Below are positions 1 through 10,000 of a stretch of DNA of 10,000 bases, piece after piece. The position numbers were made by a program, and so were the translations under genes. Below the pieces are notes generated by a model that was not told where the DNA came from, made no database searches, and worked only from the letters and a program-made list of their open reading frames with translations. Source of the stretch: Nitrospira sp. (GTDB lineage: Bacteria > Nitrospirota > Nitrospiria > Nitrospirales > Nitrospiraceae); assembly GCA_020216985.1 (NCBI GenBank), contig JAIWOH010000008.1:1-10000 (forward strand). Reading direction: 5' to 3'. How positions within the stretch are numbered: position 1 is the first letter of the stretch; every line of letters begins with the position of its first letter.

Positions 1-41
1 GGCTGCTACCGGGGCATCGCTGCTCCCCTCACTCCTATCCG

Positions 42-1244
42 CTAATAAGGGAAATCGAGCCCGGCAAAAATAGCACCCCCTTCTTTGCTGAATCCATAAT
101 CAATTCGTCCCACAACGTTAGGTCGAATGATTCCCCGAAAACCGATCCCGGGCGTGATGCGGTAGTCCTTGAAACTGACGTCCTTAAACGAGCTGAACAC
201 CTGCCCCGTATCGACGAAGGGGGCGATCTCGAAATCCGCCATCACTCCGGCCAGACGGGTACGAAGGATATGGATGCGCTCCTCGACGCTCAGGGCGATG
301 AGCTGCTTGTCGATATACCGATCCACCCCGTATCCGCGCAGATTGTTCTGCCCTCCCAAAGAACTCAGCTCATAAAACGGCACGTCCGTCCCGATCGTCG
401 CCTGGAGGTCGCCGCGAATGACTAAGATGGCGCGTTTGGATTCGCTCGCAAACATTTTTTTGACCTCGATTCCGTATCGGGAATAGAGCGGCTGCGCGCC
501 GGGATGAAAATTATGGTTGATTTCCGCATAGGCCGTCACCGCCATTCCGTCCGTCGGTGTAACAAGGTTGTTACGGGTATCGTAGTGGAACGAAATCCGT
601 TCACCCAAAATGGTGGCTCCCCCAACCCCGGAGACCGTCGGAAATCGATTCCCGGTAAAAGGCAACACGGTGGCTCCCGGATCAATGGCGTCCATGTGGC
701 GAAACCGCTGGCTGACGGCGATCTGCGTTACCTCGTTCGCATAGACACCGAACTTCCAGTTGATTCTGGTCTCCGAGGCCGTATAGTTGGTCTCGTCGTG
801 GAGCGGTGTCGTCGGCCCCAGCCCGAAAAACCGCACCGTCGCGTTCTTAAAGTGGGCGGCGCTGATCCCGATGCTGTAGCGACCATTGCTGAAGCCGGGA
901 TCGACATAGCTCAAGAGAAATCGCCGCTCGATCTTTTCCGACCAAGACGCGATGCCTCTGAGTTCCTTCCCGCCCGGCTGGTAATGAAACAGGTTCAAAG
1001 TCCCTCGGACACCGACAATGCTGTTGTAGATCACCATCGGCGCGATCAGATGTTTGAGCTCGCCGTCGGGACCGGTGATCAGGGCAGGCACGATCATGCC
1101 GTAATCGTTGCCGTCGTTCTTGCTGGAACTGATGGCGGGAATGGGAAAGTACTGCACGTCCGCATGAGCGACGCCCGCCAAAAAAGATCCGCATGGTCCG
1201 ATAAGCACGAGCGCAAGGACAAGTATGGGAGCAAGACGACGCAC
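42..1244 (-). CDS. Omp85-family (BamA/TamA-like) outer-membrane beta-barrel without POTRA domains
   Basis: A predicted 400-residue outer-membrane protein. Residues 1-28 look like a Sec signal peptide: basic MRRL, a hydrophobic core, and an AHA cleavage site. Most of the remainder resembles the C-terminal barrel of the bacterial surface antigen (Omp85) family. HYDTRNNLVTPTDG (220-233) matches the family's YDTR..P..G strand-turn motif. LGGQNNLRGYG (286-296) carries the LRGY version of the conserved (V/I)RG(F/Y) lumen-loop motif. FVDTGQVF (343-350) and the terminal strand ending LDFPY also fit. Only about 20 mature residues precede the barrel, so there is no room for POTRA domains. BamA (about 800 residues) and TamA (about 580) are much longer. 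The start is GTG with only a weak Shine-Dalgarno; no ATG offers a better signal peptide. It begins 36 bases after mlaC and is probably the last gene of the operon. A role as the outer-membrane partner of the Mla system is inferred from position. Family call good, function unknown. Confidence 0.85.
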   Translation of the reverse strand: MRRLAPILVLALVLIGPCGSFLAGVAHADVQYFPIPAISSSKNDGNDYGMIVPALITGPDGELKHLIAPMVIYNSIVGVRGTLNLFHYQPGGKELRGIASWSEKIERRFLLSYVDPGFSNGRYSIGISAAHFKNATVRFFGLGPTTPLHDETNYTASETRINWKFGVYANEVTQIAVSQRFRHMDAIDPGATVLPFTGNRFPTVSGVGGATILGERISFHYDTRNNLVTPTDGMAVTAYAEINHNFHPGAQPLYSRYGIEVKKMFASESKRAILVIRGDLQATIGTDVPFYELSSLGGQNNLRGYGVDRYIDKQLIALSVEERIHILRTRLAGVMADFEIAPFVDTGQVFSSFKDVSFKDYRITPGIGFRGIIRPNVVGRIDYGFSKEGGAIFAGLDFPY

Positions 1245-1280
1245 GAACGGTCTCGTACCTTCGAAGCGACGATACGACTG

Positions 1281-1937
1281 CTATGGAGATTTGATCTTCT
1301 CGGACTTTTTGCGGAGTTGTTCGACAAGATCGGCATAGGAAGACGCCTTGATGATCTTGGCAAATTGCCCCCGGTAATTATTCACCAGGCTGACCCCGTC
1401 GATCACGACATCGTACACGCGCCAATCATTCGCTTTTTGAATCAACCGATAATCAAGAGGGATTTCCGTTTTATCCGACAGCACCTTCGTCCTGACTTCC
1501 GCGTATTCCTTTTCAGTCCGCTCGTTTAAGTATTGAACACCTTCGCCGGAATAGGTCTCGATCTTGTCGGCATACGAATTCGTCAGCAACGTGCGAAACA
1601 GCGTCACGAACTCCCGTTTCTCCTCGTCGGACAAGGTATTCCAAGGAGCGCCAAGCGCGCGTTTCGACATCTCTTGATAATCGAAACGGGCCTCCACGAC
1701 TCGCTCCAGCATCTGTCGTCGCTCCTCAGCCTTCCCCGGCTGTTTGAGCTCATCCTGGCGGAGGATGCGCAGCACTTCGTCGATCGTCGTTCTCATTGCT
1801 TCCGTCGGAGCTCCCGCGTATCCGACAACCGGCGACAGCGACGCAACAACGACGAGACCGAGAACCCACGCCGCCATGCGTCGTTTCAGAAACACGCGAG
1901 CCGGCTGGTTTACTTCTCCTTGAAGAAATATCGCCAT
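1281..1937 (-). CDS. mlaC: MlaC/Ttg2D-family periplasmic lipid-binding protein (HpnM-like)
   Basis: A 218-residue member of the MlaC/Ttg2D ('toluene tolerance') family. These soluble periplasmic carriers shuttle a lipid between the inner-membrane MlaFED complex and the outer membrane. A basic N-terminus (FLKRR) and hydrophobic segment at about 22-38 form a signal peptide, with cleavage likely near GYA/GA (40-43). The family domain covers about 50-210. Diagnostic stretches are FDYQEMSKRALG (85-96), LSDEEKREF (102-110) and the C-terminal DGVSLVNNYRGQF (170-182), close to the family consensus. The ATG at 1937 was chosen because a strong GGGAGGA lies 6 bases upstream. A TTG further upstream (1955) lacks this, and the internal Met21 has no ribosome binding site. 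Hopanoid clusters in other bacteria often carry a MlaC relative named HpnM, so that name fits equally well given shc and hpnG upstream. Lipid specificity cannot be read from the sequence. Confidence 0.92.
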   Translation of the reverse strand: MAIFLQGEVNQPARVFLKRRMAAWVLGLVVVASLSPVVGYAGAPTEAMRTTIDEVLRILRQDELKQPGKAEERRQMLERVVEARFDYQEMSKRALGAPWNTLSDEEKREFVTLFRTLLTNSYADKIETYSGEGVQYLNERTEKEYAEVRTKVLSDKTEIPLDYRLIQKANDWRVYDVVIDGVSLVNNYRGQFAKIIKASSYADLVEQLRKKSEKIKSP

Positions 1938-1943
1938 GCTCTT

Positions 1944-1950
1944 TCCTCCC
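1944..1950 (-). promoter_or_regulatory. Ribosome binding site of mlaC
   Basis: On the minus strand GGGAGGA lies 6 bases before the ATG at 1937. It is the strongest Shine-Dalgarno in the operon and decides the mlaC start over the TTG at 1955, which lies upstream of it. Confidence 0.75.
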
Positions 1951-1989
1951 GACAAAAGATCGTTTGCAGACTCTTAAGACTTGACTTGC

Positions 1990-2433
1990 CTACTTCACCT
2001 TTCCATGCACATATTGGCTGACCAATTCCTCCAAATCCAACCCGGACTCAGTATCGCGGATTATACCGCCCGCTTGCAACGGCTCGCCTCCCCCGCCTGG
2101 CGACAACGACACGAACTTCTCCCCGATAATGCCCCTGGTCTTAATCGACGCGAAGGTATCGGTGTAGAGCTTGACATTGTTGTGCACCGCCAACCGGACA
2201 ACCGCCTGATCATCCTTCAGTGCAATCGATTTGACCCGTCCCACCTCGACACCGGCGATTTCCACGGCCGCACCGGGTTTGAGACCGGACGCCGAGTTAA
2301 ACGGCGCGTCCACCTCGTACAGATCGCCGCCGACCAATTCCAGCTTGCCGAGCTTGATCGAGAGATAGCCCAAACAGACGATCCCGACCAACACGAACAC
2401 TCCGACGGTCAATTCCAGCCTGCTTTTCTCCAT
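1990..2433 (-). CDS. mlaD: MlaD-family MCE-domain lipid transporter subunit
   Basis: A 147-residue MCE protein. MlaD forms a hexameric ring anchored in the inner membrane by one N-terminal helix. It passes lipid between the MlaE permease and periplasmic MlaC. Residues 9-27 are the transmembrane anchor (VGVFVLVGIVCLGYLSIKL). One MCE domain covers about 38-116, with the typical ASGLKPGAAVEIAGVEVGRV (48-67). The following GIIGEKFVSLSPGG (101-114) and RDTESGLDLEELV (126-138) match the family's EKY(I/V).L.PGG and D(T/I)QSA..LE.L patterns. The protein ends soon after, so the C-terminal helix is shorter than in E. coli MlaD (183 residues). The ATG at 2433 has GAGGGAG 6 bases upstream; the alternative start 12 codons earlier overlaps the end of mlaF and has no such site. 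It sits 13 bases after mlaF and 52 before mlaC. A single MCE domain argues for the Mla type rather than PqiB or YebT, which have several. Confidence 0.94.
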   Translation of the reverse strand: MEKSRLELTVGVFVLVGIVCLGYLSIKLGKLELVGGDLYEVDAPFNSASGLKPGAAVEIAGVEVGRVKSIALKDDQAVVRLAVHNNVKLYTDTFASIKTRGIIGEKFVSLSPGGGGEPLQAGGIIRDTESGLDLEELVSQYVHGKVK

Positions 2434-2439
2434 GCCGTA

Positions 2440-2446
2440 CTCCCTC
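2440..2446 (-). promoter_or_regulatory. Ribosome binding site of mlaD
   Basis: GAGGGAG on the minus strand, directly after the mlaF TAA stop and 6 bases before the ATG at 2433. It fixes the mlaD start and places the site in the 13-base mlaF-mlaD gap, which suggests coupled translation. Confidence 0.7.
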
Positions 2447-3205
2447 TTATCCACTCGGAGAAACCGCACGCAACGAGACGGTCCCTCCGACCGAGATGAA
2501 CTCCTGAATGTCCGGATCTTGCGTCCGCTGGAATTCCAGGGGTTCCGCCATCAGTGCAATGCGTCCGCCCTTCAACATGGCGACATAATCGGAAATACCG
2601 AAAATTTCCGGAATTTCATGGCTGACCATCACGGCGGTGAACCCGAATTTGCGCTGCATGCCGGTAATGAGATCATGGATCGACTTGGCCATCAGCGGAT
2701 CAAGGCCGGTCGTCGGTTCATCAAAGAGAATGATCTCCGGTTGCATGACCAGCGCCCGCGCCAAGCCGGCGCGTTTGCGCATGCCCCCGCTCAGCTCGGC
2801 GGGGAATTTATGTCCCATCCCGGCCAGACCGACCTGCTCCAATTTCTCTTCGACGCGACCGGTGACCTCCGGTCCTTTCATACGAAGTCGCTCGCGCAAC
2901 GGAAACGCCACGTTCTCAAACACCGTCAGCGAGTCGAACAACGCCGCCCCCTGAAACAGCATCGCAAACCGTTTGCGAACATCGTTGAGCGCGCGACCCC
3001 GCAATCGCGAGATTTCCATCCCATCGACCCACACTTCTCCCGAGTCGGGTTGCATCAGTCCGATCATGTGTTTGAGCAGCACGCTCTTGCCTTCTCCGCT
3101 GCGGCCGATGATGGTCGTCAGCTTCCGCGGCGGAATGACAAGGTCCACCCCTCGCAGCACCGGATGCCCGCCCAAAGTTTTCGTCACGCCGACCAGTTTG
3201 ATCAT
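2447..3205 (-). CDS. mlaF: MlaF-family ABC transporter ATP-binding protein
   Basis: A 252-residue ABC ATPase that powers lipid transport by the MlaE permease from the cytoplasmic face. All catalytic motifs are present: Walker A GRSGEGKS (34-41), Q-loop LFQGAALFDSLTV (83-95), signature LSGGMRKR (138-145), Walker B IILFDEPTTGLD (158-169) and H-loop VSHE with His196. FQGAALFDSLTVFENV and LSGGMRKRAGLARAL are characteristic of the MlaF/Ttg2A branch. The frame stays open upstream to 3448, but that part is antisense-like sequence overlapping mlaE. The domain's first strand begins at MIKLVGVTK, so the ATG at 3205 is chosen. Oddly, the nearest Shine-Dalgarno-like bases (GGAAG) abut this ATG with no spacer, and a hairpin lies just upstream, so initiation may depend on coupling with mlaE. 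It lies 50 bases after mlaE and 13 before mlaD. Confidence 0.95.
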   Translation of the reverse strand: MIKLVGVTKTLGGHPVLRGVDLVIPPRKLTTIIGRSGEGKSVLLKHMIGLMQPDSGEVWVDGMEISRLRGRALNDVRKRFAMLFQGAALFDSLTVFENVAFPLRERLRMKGPEVTGRVEEKLEQVGLAGMGHKFPAELSGGMRKRAGLARALVMQPEIILFDEPTTGLDPLMAKSIHDLITGMQRKFGFTAVMVSHEIPEIFGISDYVAMLKGGRIALMAEPLEFQRTQDPDIQEFISVGGTVSLRAVSPSG

Positions 3206-3214
3206 CTTCCAACG

Positions 3215-3239
3215 GGTTCGAGGCCTGCGGCCTTCAACC
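3215..3239 (-). other. Intercistronic hairpin between mlaE and mlaF
   Basis: In the 50-base mlaE-mlaF gap the transcript can fold as GGTT, a 2-base internal loop, AGGCC, loop GCA, GGCCT, a 2-base internal loop, then AACC. That is 5 uninterrupted base pairs plus 4 outer ones. No T-run follows, so it is not an intrinsic terminator. It ends 9 bases before the mlaF ATG and could affect mRNA stability or mlaF initiation. Either role is inference. Confidence 0.4.
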
Positions 3240-3255
3240 GAACGACCGACCGCTC

Positions 3256-4026
3256 TTACAACAGCACCGACGTCAAGAAATAATCCCACACGAGAATCAG
3301 AACCGAGGACAACACCACCGCCTCCGTCGTGGCCGTGCCCAACCCTTCCGCGCTCATCCTGGTGTAAAAACCCTTGTACGTACAGACCCAGCTGACGATC
3401 AGTCCGAAGCTGATGGATTTGAGAATGCCCCCATAGACGTCTTTCCATTCGACCGACGACGCAATTGAATTCCAGTAGGACCCCGCATTGACACCCAACA
3501 ACTCCACACCGACCAAATGGCCGCCGTAAATCCCGACGACGTCGAAAATCGCCACCAGCAACGGGACGCCGATCAAGCCAGCGACAAGCTTCGGCGCGAT
3601 CAAGTACTGAAGCGGATTGACTGCCATGGTGTCGAGTGCGTCGATTTGCTCTGTAATCCGCATAATACCGATTTCCGCCGTCATCGCCGAACCGGCTCGG
3701 GCCGTCACCATCAGCGCCGCCAGCACGGGCCCCAGCTCTCGAATCATGCTGAGCGCCACCGCCGAACCCAGCAGTCCTTCGGATCCGAATTTCCGAAGCG
3801 TGTAGTACCCTTGAAGAGCCAGCACCATGCCCGTAAAGGCGGCCGTCAATACGACGACGAACGTCGACTTGTATCCGATGAAATGCAGTTGTTTGACGAT
3901 CTGAACGACCCGGAAGGGTGGGCGAAACAACCAGGCAACGGACGAAACCACGAAGATCAACATCCGGCCCATCTCACCGACCACATTCATCGTCCAACGT
4001 CCGAGCCGTTCCAGCATCGTGATCAT
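3256..4026 (-). CDS. mlaE: MlaE-family ABC transporter permease
   Basis: The inner-membrane permease of the Mla phospholipid/lipid transporter, about 256 residues from the ATG at 4026. An amphipathic N-terminal segment is followed by several hydrophobic helices. The family's hallmark central block is intact: GMVLALQGYYTL, then IRELGPVLAALMVTARAG, then TAEIGIMRITEQIDALDTM. The C-terminal YTRMSAEGLGTATTEAVV also matches. The start is uncertain. The frame opens at an ATG at 4077, giving 273 residues and a 35-base overlap with hpnG. In-frame ATGs at 4026 and 4017 give 256 and 253 residues, nearer the usual length of about 260, and begin just after the hpnG stop. None has a convincing Shine-Dalgarno. 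I prefer 4026 because the extra residues of the long form look unlike the family. The gene order E-F-D-C differs from the F-E-D-C-B of enteric bacteria, and no MlaB (STAS) gene is present here. Confidence 0.93.
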   Translation of the reverse strand: MITMLERLGRWTMNVVGEMGRMLIFVVSSVAWLFRPPFRVVQIVKQLHFIGYKSTFVVVLTAAFTGMVLALQGYYTLRKFGSEGLLGSAVALSMIRELGPVLAALMVTARAGSAMTAEIGIMRITEQIDALDTMAVNPLQYLIAPKLVAGLIGVPLLVAIFDVVGIYGGHLVGVELLGVNAGSYWNSIASSVEWKDVYGGILKSISFGLIVSWVCTYKGFYTRMSAEGLGTATTEAVVLSSVLILVWDYFLTSVLL

Positions 4027-4042
4027 AGGGGATTGTGAGCCG

Positions 4043-4864
4043 TCAGTCTTTGAATTGCCCGGCAACCGTACCGACATAGCGTTTGAAAAACGAGGTCAGA
4101 TTGGCGGCCGCCGTCCGGCTCTGCCGACGAAGCCGCCACAGACCCGCCAATCGGGAGGGATGCCCCACCACCGAAGCCATGCCTTTCAGCCAACCGGCCG
4201 GTTGGAGAAACAGATTGAAATCCAGGGCAAGATCTTCATCCAAGAGGTCCGAGACCGTGCGGACGATGACAAACGACACTCGCGCACGCCGCGCCTCCTC
4301 CGCCAACGCCGCGCTTTCCATATCCAGACCGACCGCACCGGTGAGGCTGGCAAAATGCCGTTTGTCCGTCGCGCTGCCGACAATACGATCAGTGGAGACG
4401 AATCGACCGACGTGATTGGCCTGCCCGCTCACCTGGGCCAACCGAATCATCGCTTCCCCTTCGTCCTCCGACATCTCCCTCATCGGAAGCCGACCGGCAT
4501 CTCCTCTTCCCATGGCAATCACCTCACGGCCGAGCAGCAACGCCCCGATCTCCGTTGGGACAAGGGCACAGGCAAACCCCGTTGAAACCGCCAGGGTGAA
4601 GGGCTGACGCGTCAGCAGTCTTTGGGCGGCCCTGCCGGCCTTCTCCGGACCGATACCGGTTCGGGCCAACCAATACTCGCGGGTGCCTTCCTTATACACC
4701 AGGACCGTCATTCCATCGACATCCTGCCGAGTTTCCGTTCCGAATGCGGCGCGGACGGCCTTTGTTTCCCATACAGTCGCAGCGAACAGCGCAATTCGCT
4801 TGATCGGCGTCGTGCCAGGAAGAGGAAAGAAATCGATCGGAGAGGCGGAATCTTCAGCGGTCAA
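4043..4864 (-). CDS. hpnG: Hopanoid-associated nucleoside phosphorylase HpnG (adenosylhopane phosphorylase)
   Basis: A 273-residue protein of the purine nucleoside phosphorylase / MTA-SAH nucleosidase superfamily. In hopanoid producers HpnG removes adenine from adenosylhopane, giving (phospho)ribosylhopane, a step toward bacteriohopanetetrol and related extended hopanoids. Visible fold motifs are RIALFAATVWETKAV (23-37), TGIGPEKAG (69-77), STGFACAL (94-101), the ribose-binding GLDMESAALA (179-188, Glu183) and VRTVSD (201-206), whose Asp sits where the family places its catalytic acid. The start is a TTG whose bases overlap the shc stop as TTGA; I found no better ATG or GTG. Such an overlap implies translational coupling to shc. 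Compared with generic nucleosidases, the C-terminal 50-60 residues (QPAGWLKGMA onward) are an extension seen in hopanoid-cluster members. The neighbouring shc makes the hopanoid assignment much more likely than MTA/SAH nucleosidase or futalosine hydrolase. Confidence 0.88.
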   Translation of the reverse strand: MTAEDSASPIDFFPLPGTTPIKRIALFAATVWETKAVRAAFGTETRQDVDGMTVLVYKEGTREYWLARTGIGPEKAGRAAQRLLTRQPFTLAVSTGFACALVPTEIGALLLGREVIAMGRGDAGRLPMREMSEDEGEAMIRLAQVSGQANHVGRFVSTDRIVGSATDKRHFASLTGAVGLDMESAALAEEARRARVSFVIVRTVSDLLDEDLALDFNLFLQPAGWLKGMASVVGHPSRLAGLWRLRRQSRTAAANLTSFFKRYVGTVAGQFKD

Positions 4865-7035
4865 TGATCAGCCCGGTACGACCCGGCAGCCTGGGCATGA
4901 TGGCGCAGTTCGTCCGCCCGGGTTTTCCCTCGAGCCCGGAGGTTCCGGTACATCGCGAGCGCCCACAACGGGAAATACTGGCAGTACCAATGATAACGGA
5001 GGTAGAACACGCGCGGGAATCCCGTACCGGTATGGCGAACTTCCTCCCATGACCCGTCCTTCATTTGATGGCGCAGGAGAAATTGCACCCCGCGCGCGAC
5101 GCTGAAGGAGTCCACCACGCCGGCGGACATCAATCCCATCAAGGCCCAGGCCGTCTGTGACGGCGTGCTCTCCCCTTTGCCGCTGAAGGCAGGATCCGCA
5201 TACGACAGACAGGACTCGCCCCATCCGCCGTCCGGATTTTGTTTCGATTCCAACCATGAGACGGCCCGGCGGATGTACGGAGACGACGGATCTTCCCCCA
5301 TGGCGCGAAGGCCCGCCAGAACGGACCACGTTCCATAAATATAGTTGACGCCCCACCTTCCATACCAACTGCCGTCCTGTTCCTGTTCCTTCTTTAAAAA
5401 GGCCAAGGCCGGCCCGACGGCGGGATGCGTCCGATCGTACCCCAACGTCCCCAGCATCTCCAGACATCGCCCGGTCAAGTCCGATGTACTGGGGTCCAGC
5501 AACGCGCGGTGATCCGCAAACGGAATGTAGTTGAAGACGACACGATTGTTGTCCTTATCGTACGCCCCCCATCCTCCGTCCGACCCTTGCATGGCCAGGA
5601 CCCACTTCATGCCGCGGCGGATCGACTCCCGTTGCTCGGCGGTTTGAGCCATCTTCAATTTTGCAAGCCCCATGAGCACGACAGCGGAATCGTCGACGTC
5701 CGGGTACAACTCATTCTCAAACTGGAAGTACCATCCGCCTGGTTCGGCCGCGGGGGAGGAGACGATCCAGTCTCCCTCCTTCTTGGTCTGCCTGGACATC
5801 AGATACGCCGCGGCTTTCTGCAAAGCGGGATGGTCCTGCGACATGCCGGACTCGATCATGGCATTGATGAGCAACGCCGTATCCCAAATCGGAGAAAAGC
5901 AGGGCTGCAGATGGAGGGCAGGAAGAGACCGGCCGTCCAGCTCCACCGAATCGTACACCTCCAGTTCCTCGATCTCACGCAACGCCTTGACGACGAGGGG
6001 GTCGTCCGCGTCATAGCCCATGCACTGTAACGCCATGATGGAGTTGGCCATGGCCGGATAAATGGCGCCAAGCCCTCCGGTTCCCTTCATGTGCTCCAGC
6101 ATCCAGTCGGCGGCCCTTTTCAAGGCTTTCCTGCGCAACGCCCGCAGCGGCATCCGATCATAGACCTTCAGCAACGCATCAAGCGCCACGAAGAAATTGT
6201 GCGGCGTAAACCAATCCTGATCTTTATTGAACGGCGGGTATTTCCAATAGCGAATCGTCCGGCGGGGAACAGGATACAGTTCATCGATGCCCTGCTGACG
6301 CGAAATCCGGCACACCGGACGGTACGCAAACACGATGAGCAATGGGATCAGCACGGCCCGCGACCAATACGAAATGGCATAGACGTTGAAGTAGAACTTC
6401 TTCGGCAGCAACATGATTTCGACGGGCATGTGCGGCACGCCTTCCCAGTCATATTGATCGAACAACGCCAGGGCGATCTTGGTGAAGACGTTGGCTTGCA
6501 CCACGCCGCCCATGGCTAGAATACGTTCTTTGGCTCGAACCATGAACGGCTCGTCGGCGGACACGCCGGTCAATTTGAGGGCGAAATATGCCTTGACGGA
6601 CGCGCTGATTTCGGATGGTCCGCCGTAATAGATCGGCCAGCCACCGTCTGGCAATTGCGTGGCCTTCAAGTACCGAACGGCTTTCTCTTCACGATCGGGG
6701 TCCACGCGATCAAGAAATCGGCGGAGCATGATGTATTCGGACGTCAACGTGGTGTCCGCTTCAAGCTCCGCCACCCAGTATCCTTCCGCATGCTGGCGAT
6801 TCAGGAACCACGTCTGGCTTCGTCGGATGGCGTCGTCGATCGCATCAGGCTGGTTGTGAGCATGGCCGGTTGCACGCCGAGTCGCCGGCTCCAACGACGG
6901 CAACCCCGTCATCTTCTCGGAGACAAGCCGCAACGACGGCGACGGAGAAGGCTCCACAGCATGGCTGAGCTTCCCCGGGCTCGTCGAAAGCAAACCTTCA
7001 GAGAGACGACTGATAAGCGAGCGAATGAGGTTCAT
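4861..7035 (-). CDS. shc: Squalene-hopene cyclase
   Basis: The key enzyme of hopanoid synthesis: it protonates squalene and cyclises it to hopene/hopanol, acting as a monotopic protein on the cytoplasmic membrane. The product is 724 residues. The catalytic acid motif DVDD is at 446-449, within LYPDVDDSAVVLMGL. QW-type repeats are visible at about 77-87 (QHAEGYW), 122-134 (QLPDGGW), 478-491 (QGSDGGW), 546-560 (QEQDGSW), 594-607 (QNPDGGW) and 652-664 (QMKDGSW). The C-terminal FPRVFYLRYHWYCQYFPLWAL block is typical of bacterial enzymes. The ATG at 7035 has GGAAAG 5 bases upstream; a TTG 17 codons earlier has none. About 60 residues rich in Ser, Pro and Arg precede the conserved core, more than in shorter family members of about 630 residues. 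It is the first gene after a promoter and overlaps hpnG. The symbol hpnF is equally used. Oxidosqualene cyclase is unlikely given the DVDD motif (VSDCTAE-type in those enzymes) and the hopanoid neighbour. Confidence 0.97.
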   Translation of the reverse strand: MNLIRSLISRLSEGLLSTSPGKLSHAVEPSPSPSLRLVSEKMTGLPSLEPATRRATGHAHNQPDAIDDAIRRSQTWFLNRQHAEGYWVAELEADTTLTSEYIMLRRFLDRVDPDREEKAVRYLKATQLPDGGWPIYYGGPSEISASVKAYFALKLTGVSADEPFMVRAKERILAMGGVVQANVFTKIALALFDQYDWEGVPHMPVEIMLLPKKFYFNVYAISYWSRAVLIPLLIVFAYRPVCRISRQQGIDELYPVPRRTIRYWKYPPFNKDQDWFTPHNFFVALDALLKVYDRMPLRALRRKALKRAADWMLEHMKGTGGLGAIYPAMANSIMALQCMGYDADDPLVVKALREIEELEVYDSVELDGRSLPALHLQPCFSPIWDTALLINAMIESGMSQDHPALQKAAAYLMSRQTKKEGDWIVSSPAAEPGGWYFQFENELYPDVDDSAVVLMGLAKLKMAQTAEQRESIRRGMKWVLAMQGSDGGWGAYDKDNNRVVFNYIPFADHRALLDPSTSDLTGRCLEMLGTLGYDRTHPAVGPALAFLKKEQEQDGSWYGRWGVNYIYGTWSVLAGLRAMGEDPSSPYIRRAVSWLESKQNPDGGWGESCLSYADPAFSGKGESTPSQTAWALMGLMSAGVVDSFSVARGVQFLLRHQMKDGSWEEVRHTGTGFPRVFYLRYHWYCQYFPLWALAMYRNLRARGKTRADELRHHAQAAGSYRADH

Positions 7036-7040
7036 ACGAT

Positions 7041-7046
7041 CTTTCC
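7041..7046 (-). promoter_or_regulatory. Ribosome binding site of shc
   Basis: GGAAAG on the minus strand, 5 bases before the ATG at 7035. It favours this start over the in-frame TTG at 7086, which has no purine-rich site in front of it. Confidence 0.5.
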
Positions 7047-7135
7047 GGCGCGAGAAGCAGGACGAGACCCGCTCTTTTTTCCCCAAGACTCAGAAATCTT
7101 GCGCAACCGATCTGTTCCATCACGATTGCACCTTA

Positions 7136-7163
7136 ATAAGCCCTGGACCGCCTGGGGGCTTAT
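7136..7163 (-). promoter_or_regulatory. Perfect inverted repeat over the -10 box and start region of the shc promoter
   Basis: On the minus strand ATAAGCCC and GGGCTTAT form perfect 8-base arms around a 12-base centre. The upstream arm shares five bases with the predicted -10 box, and the centre covers the expected transcription start. This position suits a repressor operator. The same sequence in RNA would be a hairpin, but with only four GC pairs and no T-run it makes a poor terminator for smc. Regulatory role inferred. Confidence 0.4.
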
Positions 7164-7187
7164 AACAAACGGCCCTATTGGAGTCAA
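7159..7187 (-). promoter_or_regulatory. Predicted sigma70-type promoter of the shc-hpnG-mla operon
   Basis: On the minus strand the -35 box TTGACT (7187-7182) and -10 box TATAAG (7164-7159) are separated by exactly 17 bases. Each matches five of six consensus bases. Initiation would fall near 7152, leaving a leader of about 115 bases before the shc ATG. It lies in the only sizeable non-coding gap, directly upstream of the seven-gene run. No comparably good promoter was seen in the short gaps inside the run. Confidence 0.55.
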
Positions 7188-7227
7188 GCGACCGCACGAA
7201 AAGTCCTGTGTCCGCTTGACCTTTTCG
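7183..7227 (-). repeat. Two interleaved inverted repeats just after smc
   Basis: Reading the minus strand from the smc stop, arms occur in the order A-B-A'-B'. CGAAAAG (7227-7221) and CTTTTCG (7203-7197) form one 7-base pair of arms. GTCAAGCG (7220-7213) and CGCTTGAC (7190-7183) form one 8-base pair. Both are perfect. The last arm contains most of the shc -35 box. With no bases between A and B, both stems cannot easily form in full at once, so they may be alternatives. No T-run follows either stem, so neither is a standard intrinsic terminator. Confidence 0.4.
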
Positions 7228-7228
7228 G

Positions 7229-10000
7229 TCACGCGGTCGGTTGAAGATCTGCCAACCGTACGGACACCAACTTGGAGACTCCCGGCTCTTCCATCGTGAC
7301 CCCGAAGAGAGAGTCGGCGATCGCCATCGTTCGTTTATTGTGAGTCACGACCAAGAACTGAGCGTTCTGCGACAAATCCCGCAACACCGCGGTGAACCGG
7401 CCGATGTTCTCCTCGTCCAACGGCGCGTCGATTTCGTCCAAAAGACAAAACGGCGTCGGCCTGATCAGAAAGCTGGCGAACAACAGCGCCATCGCCGTCA
7501 GAGTTTTCTCTCCCCCCGACAGCATCGTGATGCTCTTGAGCCGTTTCCCCGGCGGCTGCGCGACGATATCGATGCCGGGCTCTTGATCCCCCGGCTCGCC
7601 GGCGTCTTCCGAAGGCGGCTCTTCGACGAGCCGAAGTTCGGCCCGGCCTCCCGGGAAGAACTGGCCGAACACTTCGCCGAATTTTTGCTGCAAGTCCTCG
7701 AAGGTCGAGGCGAACATATCTTTGGTCGTGCGGTTGATCCGCTGAATAATGGCCTTGAGCGAACCGATCGAGTTCGAGAGATCCTCTTCTTGAGTCGAGA
7801 GAAACGTATGCCGCTGCTCCAACTCTTCATGCTCACGAATGGCCGCCAGATTGATGGGACCCATGCGATCCAATCGCTCACGCAATTTCTGAAGTTGCTC
7901 CTTGATCTCGTCGTCCGAACCCCGTGCCAGCGACGGAGCCGCGCTTTCGCTCCCTTCCACCGGCTGGTCGCCGGACGTCGGTTGATCGTCGGCCAGCGCC
8001 CGCGGTTCCAATTGATAGGTTCCCGACAACGTGCTTTCAACCATGCTCAATTGAGTCTGCAACTGAGCCCGACGCACTTCGACTCCCATTCTAGCTTCGC
8101 GCACCGCCGCCAGTTCCCTGCGTATCTCCTCCGCGCCAGCTTCCAACGTCTGACGAACGGACAATTCCTGAGCCTGCCGCTCTTGGGCCGACGCCAGATC
8201 GGCACTGAGCTGCGCTGCCGATGCACTGAGTTCGCGGAAGACCGCTTCCTGCCTTGCCTGCTCCTCCTTGCTGTCCTGAATCGCGCGCGCCAACTCTTGC
8301 AGATGTTGAGTCAACGATTGACGCCGTCGGCTCATGTCCGTCTGCTGCTGCGTGACGCGAGCCAGGTCGGCCTGTTCATGCTCTTGTTTGGCCCGTAGCC
8401 CTTCCAACAGCAGTCGCGCCTCGGTGAGCCGCTCCTGAAACGCCCTCCCTCGGCCGTCGATCTCGACCAGCCGCTCCTGCATTTGAGCCAAGATTGTCTC
8501 GCGTTCGGTTTTCTCAATCACCCATTGTTGAAGCTGTATCTCAATCGCTTTCTTTTCCTCCGCGTATCGCTCGACGGCCGCTTTGTTCCTGGAAACGTCT
8601 GTCTCAATATGTTTCACCTTGAGGTCGAGGTCGGCCGCCACTTGATTCGACGCCTCATCATCTTTGCGCAACGCCAGTTCACGCATCTCGGCCCCGCGCA
8701 AATCATCCGTGATCCGCTTCATTTGCGCCGACAGCTCCTCGACCTTGGCCTGTAATTCCAACCGCCGTTGCTTGTCCTGCTCGAGCGCCGTTGCGATAAT
8801 TATCCGTTCCCTTTGCAGATCAACGACTTCCCGTCGCCGTTCCAGCAACCCGCGATCTCCGCGCGCCTGCCCCCCGCTGATGACCCCCGAGGCATCCACA
8901 ATCTCTCCCGCTCGCGTGACCAATAGGGGCCCCCGTTGGTCCGACCATATCCGTTGTTCCCAAAGCCGCAGGGCGTCGTGCAGAGATTCCACAAAGACGA
9001 CCCGATCAAACAGACTATCGCGAGCCGCGAGCAAATCCTCTTCTGTCTGAATAAGATCGACGGCGCGCCCCAGCACACCCGGCTGTCCCGCCATCGCCGT
9101 CCACCACTCCTCTGCCTGCCCGCCCGTCCGTTCCCACCGAGGCTGTTTTGGAATGAACGTCCCGCGTCCCAGCGATTTTTCCCGCAGAAACTCGACAGCC
9201 CGCGTCGCGACCGCCGGTTCGTCGACCACCCATCCGTGCACACGTTCGCCGAGGAAGGCTTCCACGGCTCGATCCAGCTCCGATGGAACGGTCAGCCATT
9301 CAGCCAGCGCGTCCCCGACGCCGCCGCAAGACTTCAACGCCGTCGCCTCGTCGCTCCCCTGCCGCCCGTATCCCATTTCTTCCCGCACCAGTCCCTGCAA
9401 GGCGTTCAATCGAGAATCGACCGCGGCCGCTTCCTCGGACCGGCGTAAAATCACTTCATCGAGCGCCCGGAGTTCTTCAGCGACCTGCGCCGCGGTTCTT
9501 CGAGTCAGTTCTTGATGCTCCCGCAAACTCTCCACCAACTTGCCTGCCTCTCCCTGCTCCAGCCGCAGCGACTCGCGTTGCACATTCACGGTGACGCGCT
9601 GGGCCAGGGCGTCGGCCAGATTCGCTCCCAACAGTGCCTCGCGCCTGGTCGCCTCGTCCAGACGCAGAGCCAACTGGGCCAGCGCCTGCTCCGCGTTCGC
9701 CACTTGCACCGCCAACCGGAGGAGATCTTGATGACCACGATCTTTTTCGACCGCTGCCGTCGCCCGTTGTTCTGAAAGACGGGCCATTTCTTGGTCCAAC
9801 TCCGCGCAGACGACCTCGCGGTCCTTGAGTTCTCGTTCTATCTGCGCCAATGAGGCCTCGATCGCCTCGCGCGAGGCTTCCAGATCTTTTTCGACTTGCG
9901 CAAGGTCGTCGAATTCCTTCGCCTCTTGCTGTTGTTGCTGCTCGAATAATTGGCGCCGATTCCTGGCCACTTCCGAGGCCGTCAGGGCCTGCCCCTGCCG
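7229..10000 (-). CDS. smc: Chromosome segregation ATPase SMC (C-terminal part; N-terminus beyond the right edge)
   Basis: About 923 codons of an SMC protein, open to the window edge. SMC dimers with ScpA/ScpB organise and separate sister chromosomes at the nucleoid. Numbering from the first codon in the window, residues 1-200 are the end of the ascending coiled coil (Gln/Glu/Arg/Leu-rich). About 205-380 is the hinge, with KSCGGVGDALAEWL, AFLGERVHGWVV and the exit motif DASGVISGGQARGDRG. About 380-660 is the descending coil. The C-terminal ATPase half includes MGPINLAAIREHEEL, AQPPGKRLKSITMLSGGEK (signature, about 828-833), Walker B FCLLDEIDAPLDE (851-863) and VTHNK. The Walker A half is missing only because the window ends. 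A GTG at 9970 is not the true start, since the frame continues upstream as coiled coil. A Pro/Ser/Asp-rich linker at about 665-700 interrupts the coil near the head. RecN and Rad50 are excluded by the hinge and length. Confidence 0.96.
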   Translation of the reverse strand, partial: RQGQALTASEVARNRRQLFEQQQQQEAKEFDDLAQVEKDLEASREAIEASLAQIERELKDREVVCAELDQEMARLSEQRATAAVEKDRGHQDLLRLAVQVANAEQALAQLALRLDEATRREALLGANLADALAQRVTVNVQRESLRLEQGEAGKLVESLREHQELTRRTAAQVAEELRALDEVILRRSEEAAAVDSRLNALQGLVREEMGYGRQGSDEATALKSCGGVGDALAEWLTVPSELDRAVEAFLGERVHGWVVDEPAVATRAVEFLREKSLGRGTFIPKQPRWERTGGQAEEWWTAMAGQPGVLGRAVDLIQTEEDLLAARDSLFDRVVFVESLHDALRLWEQRIWSDQRGPLLVTRAGEIVDASGVISGGQARGDRGLLERRREVVDLQRERIIIATALEQDKQRRLELQAKVEELSAQMKRITDDLRGAEMRELALRKDDEASNQVAADLDLKVKHIETDVSRNKAAVERYAEEKKAIEIQLQQWVIEKTERETILAQMQERLVEIDGRGRAFQERLTEARLLLEGLRAKQEHEQADLARVTQQQTDMSRRRQSLTQHLQELARAIQDSKEEQARQEAVFRELSASAAQLSADLASAQERQAQELSVRQTLEAGAEEIRRELAAVREARMGVEVRRAQLQTQLSMVESTLSGTYQLEPRALADDQPTSGDQPVEGSESAAPSLARGSDDEIKEQLQKLRERLDRMGPINLAAIREHEELEQRHTFLSTQEEDLSNSIGSLKAIIQRINRTTKDMFASTFEDLQQKFGEVFGQFFPGGRAELRLVEEPPSEDAGEPGDQEPGIDIVAQPPGKRLKSITMLSGGEKTLTAMALLFASFLIRPTPFCLLDEIDAPLDEENIGRFTAVLRDLSQNAQFLVVTHNKRTMAIADSLFGVTMEEPGVSKLVSVRLADLQPTA

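Follow-up and report, generated by a model that had tools for sequence, protein, structure and literature searches.

The DNA analysed here (the window) is taken from contig C64, bases 1-10000, in a metagenome-assembled genome of Nitrospira (2.26 Mb, 222 contigs, 87% complete). It carries seven consecutive genes, shc, hpnG, mlaE, mlaF, mlaD, mlaC and omp85, in which hopanoid synthesis is joined to a lipid transporter of the Mla type and to an outer-membrane barrel. Our best explanation is that the window contains the greater part of an operon for isoprenoid-to-hopanoid synthesis belonging to the order Nitrospirales, and the findings described below suggest that Nitrospira and its relatives make and ship hopanoids by means of one conserved unit. 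We tentatively propose a more specific scheme for Nitrospirales, in which a mammalian cell entry (MCE)-type ATP-binding cassette (ABC) transporter, MlaC and an Omp85 protein lacking POTRA domains ship hopanoid in that order, the motor being swapped between Mla and resistance-nodulation-division (RND) pumps while the carrier is kept.

A conserved row of hopanoid, Mla and barrel genes

All eight genes of the window lie on the minus strand, the eighth being smc, which is cut by the window end; the window contains no tRNA genes. The seven frames from shc to omp85 are open and intact, with zero internal stops. By the chosen starts the intergenic gaps are -4, -35, 50, -23, 34 and 36 bases, in agreement with an earlier note on this DNA, which had described seven genes in one direction with gaps of at most about 50 bases.

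Gene order around shc was compared in two samples. The first consisted of the best 80 of 234 stretches encoding close Shc relatives; it is a sample of close relatives, labelled Nitrospira, Nitrospirae/Nitrospirota, Nitrospiraceae and once Nitrosospira, and most of its loci come from one genus. All seven genes were present in the same order and direction in 74 of these 80 named loci, and the other six were interrupted by contig ends. A fairer test of conservation is provided by the second sample, 148 genomes of the phylum, of which 32, the own genome included, belong to the window's family (f1). In 32/32 f1 genomes an MlaE gene is found no more than about 3 kb from shc, the listed places of both being compared by eye; second copies of MlaE and HpnN were placed only among the matches listed. 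The association between the hopanoid-synthesis genes, mlaEFDC and a gene for an outer-membrane barrel, to which the earlier note had drawn attention, is therefore conserved far beyond chance.

The seven genes of the note stand, but in relatives the row extends beyond omp85. On the same strand, omp85 is followed by dxs in 70 of the 70 loci having at least 3 kb beyond omp85, and dxs by ispG in 60 of the 61 having at least 4.5 kb (the exception, L050, gave no match). Upstream, smc runs in the same direction as shc and is preceded by ispH in 64/64 loci. These gene names were confirmed by NCBIfam on N. moscoviensis proteins. Farther downstream, hpnH was found in 15 loci and a GT87 gene in 28. The Mla part thus sits between hopanoid genes and isoprenoid-precursor genes; in the window the dxs-ispG continuation is invisible because the contig starts at window base 1. 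A DUF3187 protein (PF11383) is encoded between omp85 and dxs in 31 loci (for example L079:17062-18087), and in two f1 loci, L094 and L096, it is the sole barrel-like gene, with zero omp85 match.

The row is probably co-transcribed. The promoter that had been noted before shc was recovered as TTGACT-N17-TATAAG at 7187-7159. An automated scan of the window gave four promoter-like sites, where shuffled sequence gave 3.1; it passed over this one because it requires the sixth base of the second hexamer to be T. The 230 bases before shc were compared in the 78 loci with enough sequence, which are related and hence not independent. The best site scored at least 9/12 in 76 of the 78, against 18% of mononucleotide shuffles, and 10/12 in 35, against 1.9% of such shuffles. 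It opens with TTGAC in 77/78 loci, 70-181 nt before the shc start, and the TTGAC box is retained even in loci where over 1 kb separates smc from shc. In the window smc and shc are 193 bases apart, and 51 of 73 loci have a distance below 600 bases; smc is thus often, though not always, close to shc. An RNA element in the intergenic region was rejected, with zero Rfam matches.

Table 1. Positions of the row and its promoter-like site in the window
Feature	Positions	Strand	Pfam match (bits)	Other evidence
Promoter-like site TTGACT-N17-TATAAG	7159..7187	-		123 bases before shc start; TTGAC box similarly placed in 77/78 relatives
shc, squalene-hopene cyclase, 724 aa	4861..7035	-	SQHop_cyclase_C 506	TIGR01507 786.9 bits, cut-off 431.1; DVDDSA motif
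hpnG-like nucleoside phosphorylase, 273 aa	4043..4864	-	PNP_UDP_1 67	TIGR03468 92.4 bits; MESA and RTVSD motifs; 4-base overlap with shc
mlaE, permease, 273 aa	3256..4077	-	MlaE 275	TIGR00056 267.3 bits, cut-off 212.2; start may be ATG at 4026
mlaF, ATPase, 252 aa	2447..3205	-	ABC_tran (PF00005) 112	Walker A GRSGEGKS, LSGG, IILFDEP
mlaD, short single-MCE protein, 159 aa	1990..2469	-	MlaD 75	TIGR04430 139.4 bits, cut-off 135
mlaC, exported NTF2-like lipid carrier, 224 aa	1281..1955	-	MlaC (PF05494) 176	
omp85, Omp85-superfamily barrel without POTRA domains, 400 aa	42..1244	-	Omp85 (PF01103) 65	LRGY motif

Shc, MlaE and MlaD score above the cut-offs of their curated families (Table 1). HpnG, MlaC (tested as HpnM) and the barrel (tested as BamA) score below them, and are therefore named by family only. 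Shc has six QW-type motifs besides DVDDSA, and both the DXDD[TS]A/QW pattern and the family score identify it as a squalene-hopene cyclase; an alternative TTG start upstream, at 7086, is possible. HpnG is the enzyme that removes adenine from adenosylhopane. The HpnG-like protein of the window falls short of the TIGR03468 cut-off of 187.1 bits, yet TIGR03468 is the best of the 12 families listed for it. Its gene (4043-4864) is far more variable than its neighbours, with 42-61% identity outside the closest loci, against at least 71% for Shc.

MlaE, MlaF, MlaD and MlaC are encoded together in the window. MlaB (STAS) is absent from the row, there being zero further genes between the seven, and the set was therefore filed as an Mla-type variant. 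The MlaA lipoprotein gave no match in the own genome (87% complete), is present in 20 of the 23 same-genus genomes searched (own included), and never adjoins the shc-mla row in the loci read. The best NCBIfam match of MlaC is HpnM (TIGR03481), an identity that was rejected: it scored 109.6 bits against a cut-off of 160.1, and unlinked MlaC proteins of shc-less genomes scored similarly (100.7 and 99.2). The barrel shows the Omp85 domain, the barrel fold and the LRG[YF] motif of the Omp85 superfamily. It does not qualify as a BamA or TamA protein, since only PF01103 and no POTRA domain was found and TIGR03303 gave 38.4 against 297 bits; a search by sequence for a solved relative gave none at E up to 1. 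The predicted folds of both MlaC and the barrel support their assignments.

Exchange and loss of the inner-membrane pump

The same row occurs in family f27, where it was seen whole in three of six genomes and interrupted by contig ends in the other three. The sister family f2 has shc in 48/48 genomes and MlaC in 48/48, and in 39 genomes no more than 6 kb separates the two. Among the other nine, the two genes are far apart on one contig in G160 and on different contigs in eight, including G169, which has hpnG-mlaC without adjoining shc. The mlaE of the shc-linked type is present in 24 of the 48 (two cut by contig ends) and missing in 23, one genome being left uncalled. Twenty of the 48 retain mlaC near shc without that mlaE, and 14 of these 20 have no MlaE match at all. 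Between hpnG and mlaC, G169 (L160) has fragments of mlaE, mlaF and mlaD, and G181 (L168) one weak mlaD fragment (E 7e-4); in these two genomes mlaEFD decayed in place while mlaC stayed.

HpnN scored above its cut-off in 4 of the 148 genomes of the phylum sample, all from f2, and in 0/32 f1 and 0/6 f8 genomes. The best match in the own genome, which is incomplete, was below the cut-off (E 4.6e-7), and G029 (f6) has a partial HpnN match at a contig end beside shc. When all 48 f2 genomes were considered, HpnN was above the cut-off in 24, with three further partial matches at contig ends. True HpnN follows mlaC-omp85-tpr in the same row in L143-L145, from three genomes of the f2 genus g77 (G188, G174 and G187), and in G183 the mlaC-omp85-tpr/HpnN row is split in two halves over two contigs. 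Elsewhere in f2 (L163-L166), HpnN lies beside an MlaA-family gene and a second MlaC-family gene.

Counting the partial matches as HpnN and the two mlaE genes cut by contig ends as Mla, and omitting G189, whose contig ends inside mlaC, 47 f2 genomes comprise nine with Mla and HpnN, 15 with Mla only, 18 with HpnN only (14 of them one genus) and five with neither (Fisher p = 0.008, kinship uncorrected). Strict exclusion of the two pumps was therefore rejected.

A different replacement was found in family f28. Here an RND protein of 834-841 aa and HAE3/MMPL type, scoring 108 and 115 bits with HpnN (cut-off 752), is encoded directly after shc or shc-hpnG in 3/3 shc-bearing genomes (G212, G214 and G218); in G212 it is followed by mlaC-omp85-dxs-ispG. 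The RND pump occupies the slot of mlaEFD in f28, replacing rather than joining it. The proposal of the earlier note that Mla takes the place of HpnN thus agrees with the lack of HpnN in f1 and with the RND gene in the mlaEFD slot of f28, but it is too simple for the nine f2 genomes that hold both. As we read these patterns, MlaC, often accompanied by Omp85, is the most constant component of transport, and the inner-membrane pump is exchangeable between Mla ABC and RND types.

In family f8 the order differs: four of six genomes have mlaE-F-D, a TolC-family gene, mlaC, hpnH, shc and hpnG, the contigs of the other two being broken. In f20, as in f8, mlaD and mlaC are separated by a TolC-family gene, the assignment in f8 coming from one protein that scored below the cut-off. 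Most other phylum loci read have mlaEFD (MlaE about 45-51% identical) and no shc or mlaC match.

In a 40-row tree of MlaC proteins, the mla-less rows of f2 require four changes, at least two of them forced by well-supported branches, which points to repeated loss of mlaEFD (or to loss followed by regain). MlaC proteins encoded beside HpnN form a separate group (100/98). The window and f1 group together at 84/93, below the strict mark.

Hopanoid as the possible cargo

In the proposed mechanism, the hopanoid core would be made by Shc and HpnG, and in relatives the same row continues with dxs and ispG of the methylerythritol phosphate (MEP) pathway and often with hpnH. The mlaEFDC-omp85 genes would form the delivery line for the hopanoid product: MlaEFD at the inner membrane would exchange lipid with MlaC using ATP, MlaC would ferry it through the periplasm, and the barrel would act at the outer membrane. 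The cargo would include hopanoid, probably together with phospholipid, and transport would run from the inner to the outer membrane, with contact between MlaC and the barrel. We regard the chances that hopanoid is a real cargo of the line in the window's organism as evenly balanced.

The Mla system moves phospholipid between membranes. The row might be a phospholipid Mla system of the ordinary kind, expressed along with the genes for hopanoids and isoprenoids because both serve envelope upkeep, and never touching hopanoids, an explanation that we consider rather unlikely. Much of what weighs against a hopanoid cargo would suit it. MlaC resembles phospholipid carriers, matching phospholipid-bound structures, and is no closer to HpnM than its unlinked relatives are; MlaD is above the cut-off of a family defined by outer-membrane asymmetry (139.4 against 135 bits). 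The one-contig genome G110 has a single MlaE and a single MlaC match, both in the shc row, with one MlaA elsewhere, and L113-L115, from three other families, hold mlaEFD...mlaC (56-60%) without shc, which is not above the cut-off in these relatives (G047, G014 and G107). For these last two reasons the word 'dedicated', applied to the system in the earlier note, is not supported. The best-characterised Mla systems are described as carrying phospholipid from the outer to the inner membrane (retrograde), a direction long disputed (PMC10665443). Further points count against the delivery line: Omp85 is missing from two f1 genomes (L094 and L096) and several f2 genera; G216 (L183, 96% complete) keeps RND-mlaC-dxs-ispG with no shc over the cut-off; and of the f2 genomes tabulated above, the nine with both pumps (three in one row) and the five with neither do not fit a simple exchange. 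Evidence against a purely phospholipid system comes in turn from the 20 f2 genomes in which shc-linked mlaC persists although that mlaE is missing (14 have no MlaE match whatever) and from the RND pumps in the mlaEFD slot. Nor would the row be needed as the only MCE system in most f1 genomes, which have a second MlaE (two MlaE were found in 13 of 15 same-genus genomes, own included). In the three copies of the second system that were read (G105, G094 and G055; L100 = G105:C22, L102 and L103), it has MlaF, a long MlaD of its own and a lipoprotein resembling PqiC, without MlaC; the G105 copy has a STAS-MlaE fusion, and only there is MlaA nearby. Among 23 same-genus genomes, MlaC is encoded once in 10, more than once in 12 and not at all in one (54% complete).

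Labour might instead be divided, with MlaC and Omp85, with or without HpnN or another RND pump, exporting hopanoid while MlaEFD returns phospholipid, so that Mla and HpnN are partners. The presence of Mla and HpnN in one row in L143-L145, their joint occurrence in nine of 48 f2 genomes and the L163-L166 loci, where HpnN has its own MlaA- and MlaC-family genes, speak for such a partnership. We nevertheless judge it improbable, because HpnN is below the cut-off in all 32 f1 and six f8 genomes, which would need another exporter, and because the f28 pump replaces mlaEFD instead of joining it. Finally, the neighbourhood could be an inherited accident with no functional link, since members of a genus may simply retain a gene order and a single genus supplies most of the named loci. 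This we disfavour strongly: pumps were swapped and lost in place across families, and in the MlaC tree f8 clusters with unlinked MlaC proteins of f15, f20 and f23 (99/96), apart from Nitrospirales. The f8 linkage, with its other order, therefore looks separate, unless linkage was lost in the unlinked families.

If the delivery line carries hopanoid as proposed, Mla would transport a polycyclic triterpenoid and Omp85 would serve as a pore for lipid delivery; Mla-type systems would move more than phospholipid, and a barrel outside protein assembly would join lipid delivery. Only for bacteria with HpnN is the route of hopanoids to the outer membrane known, and then in outline. In the phylum sample 64 of 148 genomes carry shc over the cut-off and only four HpnN. 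The locus offers candidate parts of such a route for nitrifiers that are widespread, and the pump swaps and losses are natural experiments that can show which component tracks the lipid. The same reading, if true, would aid the interpretation of nitrite-oxidiser hopanoids used as biomarkers. No report of an mla-hopanoid operon in Nitrospira was found in the titles and abstract starts of open-licence literature.

Comparison with known systems

The Mla genes of E. coli (mlaFEDCB, with mlaA elsewhere) likewise place the MlaE, MlaF, MlaD and MlaC families side by side in one direction, but their order is F-E-D-C-B, whereas the window has E-F-D-C, without mlaB, with an Omp85 barrel and amid hopanoid and MEP genes. 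In Veillonella parvula, mlaEFD-tolC-tamB also encodes MlaEFD together with outer-membrane parts; MlaC and MlaA are absent there, MlaD is elongated, and hopanoid genes are not mentioned in the available part of the report (PMC10665443).

HpnN is the established hopanoid shuttle in proteobacteria, and HpnM is possibly involved (PMC12583986). The HpnN systems with HpnM or VacJ of Rhodopseudomonas and Burkholderia resemble the window in that an inner-membrane pump and a partner of the MlaC or MlaA family are encoded with hopanoid genes. They differ in that their pump is of the RND type, whereas that of the window is an ABC/MCE complex and its MlaC is below the HpnM cut-off. The second gene of an hpnN-hpnM operon in Burkholderia is reported to encode a VacJ-family lipoprotein (PMC7157819), and the HpnN/MlaA/MlaC arrangement of L163-L166 resembles this hpnN-VacJ pair.

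The presence of shc and hpnH in Nitrospirales has been reported (PMC10579370), and in Leptospirillum a 'HpnCDEFGIJHGRP and BamA hopanoid system' has been named (PMC7231039). A comparable feature of the four f14 loci read is an Omp85 relative after shc (0.9-1.1 kb away in 4/4), and mla genes are absent from them. One f14 locus (L132:6640-8862) has a single 740-aa open frame spanning an HpnG-like part and an Omp85 part. These are separate genes in the other f14 loci read, so that the fusion was seen in one of four. In f22 an Omp85 relative lies near shc in one of three, on the opposite strand.

BstA, BstB and BstC of Methylococcus capsulatus are a further case in which a synthesis operon for a cyclic triterpenoid-type lipid includes transporter parts, namely an RND pump, a periplasmic carrier and an outer-membrane-associated TPR-like protein (PMC10942540). 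The carrier families differ from that of the window, and the TPR proteins of f2 resemble BstC weakly. These f2 proteins are encoded between mlaC (or omp85) and dxs (L084:12309-13055 and L124:13889-14686); their identification as BstC was rejected, the scores being 29.4 and 23.7 bits (cut-off 350) and other TPR families scoring alike. Several f2 genomes, for example G171, G183 and G190, also have a second cyclase gene, which scores about 600-630 bits with TIGR01507.

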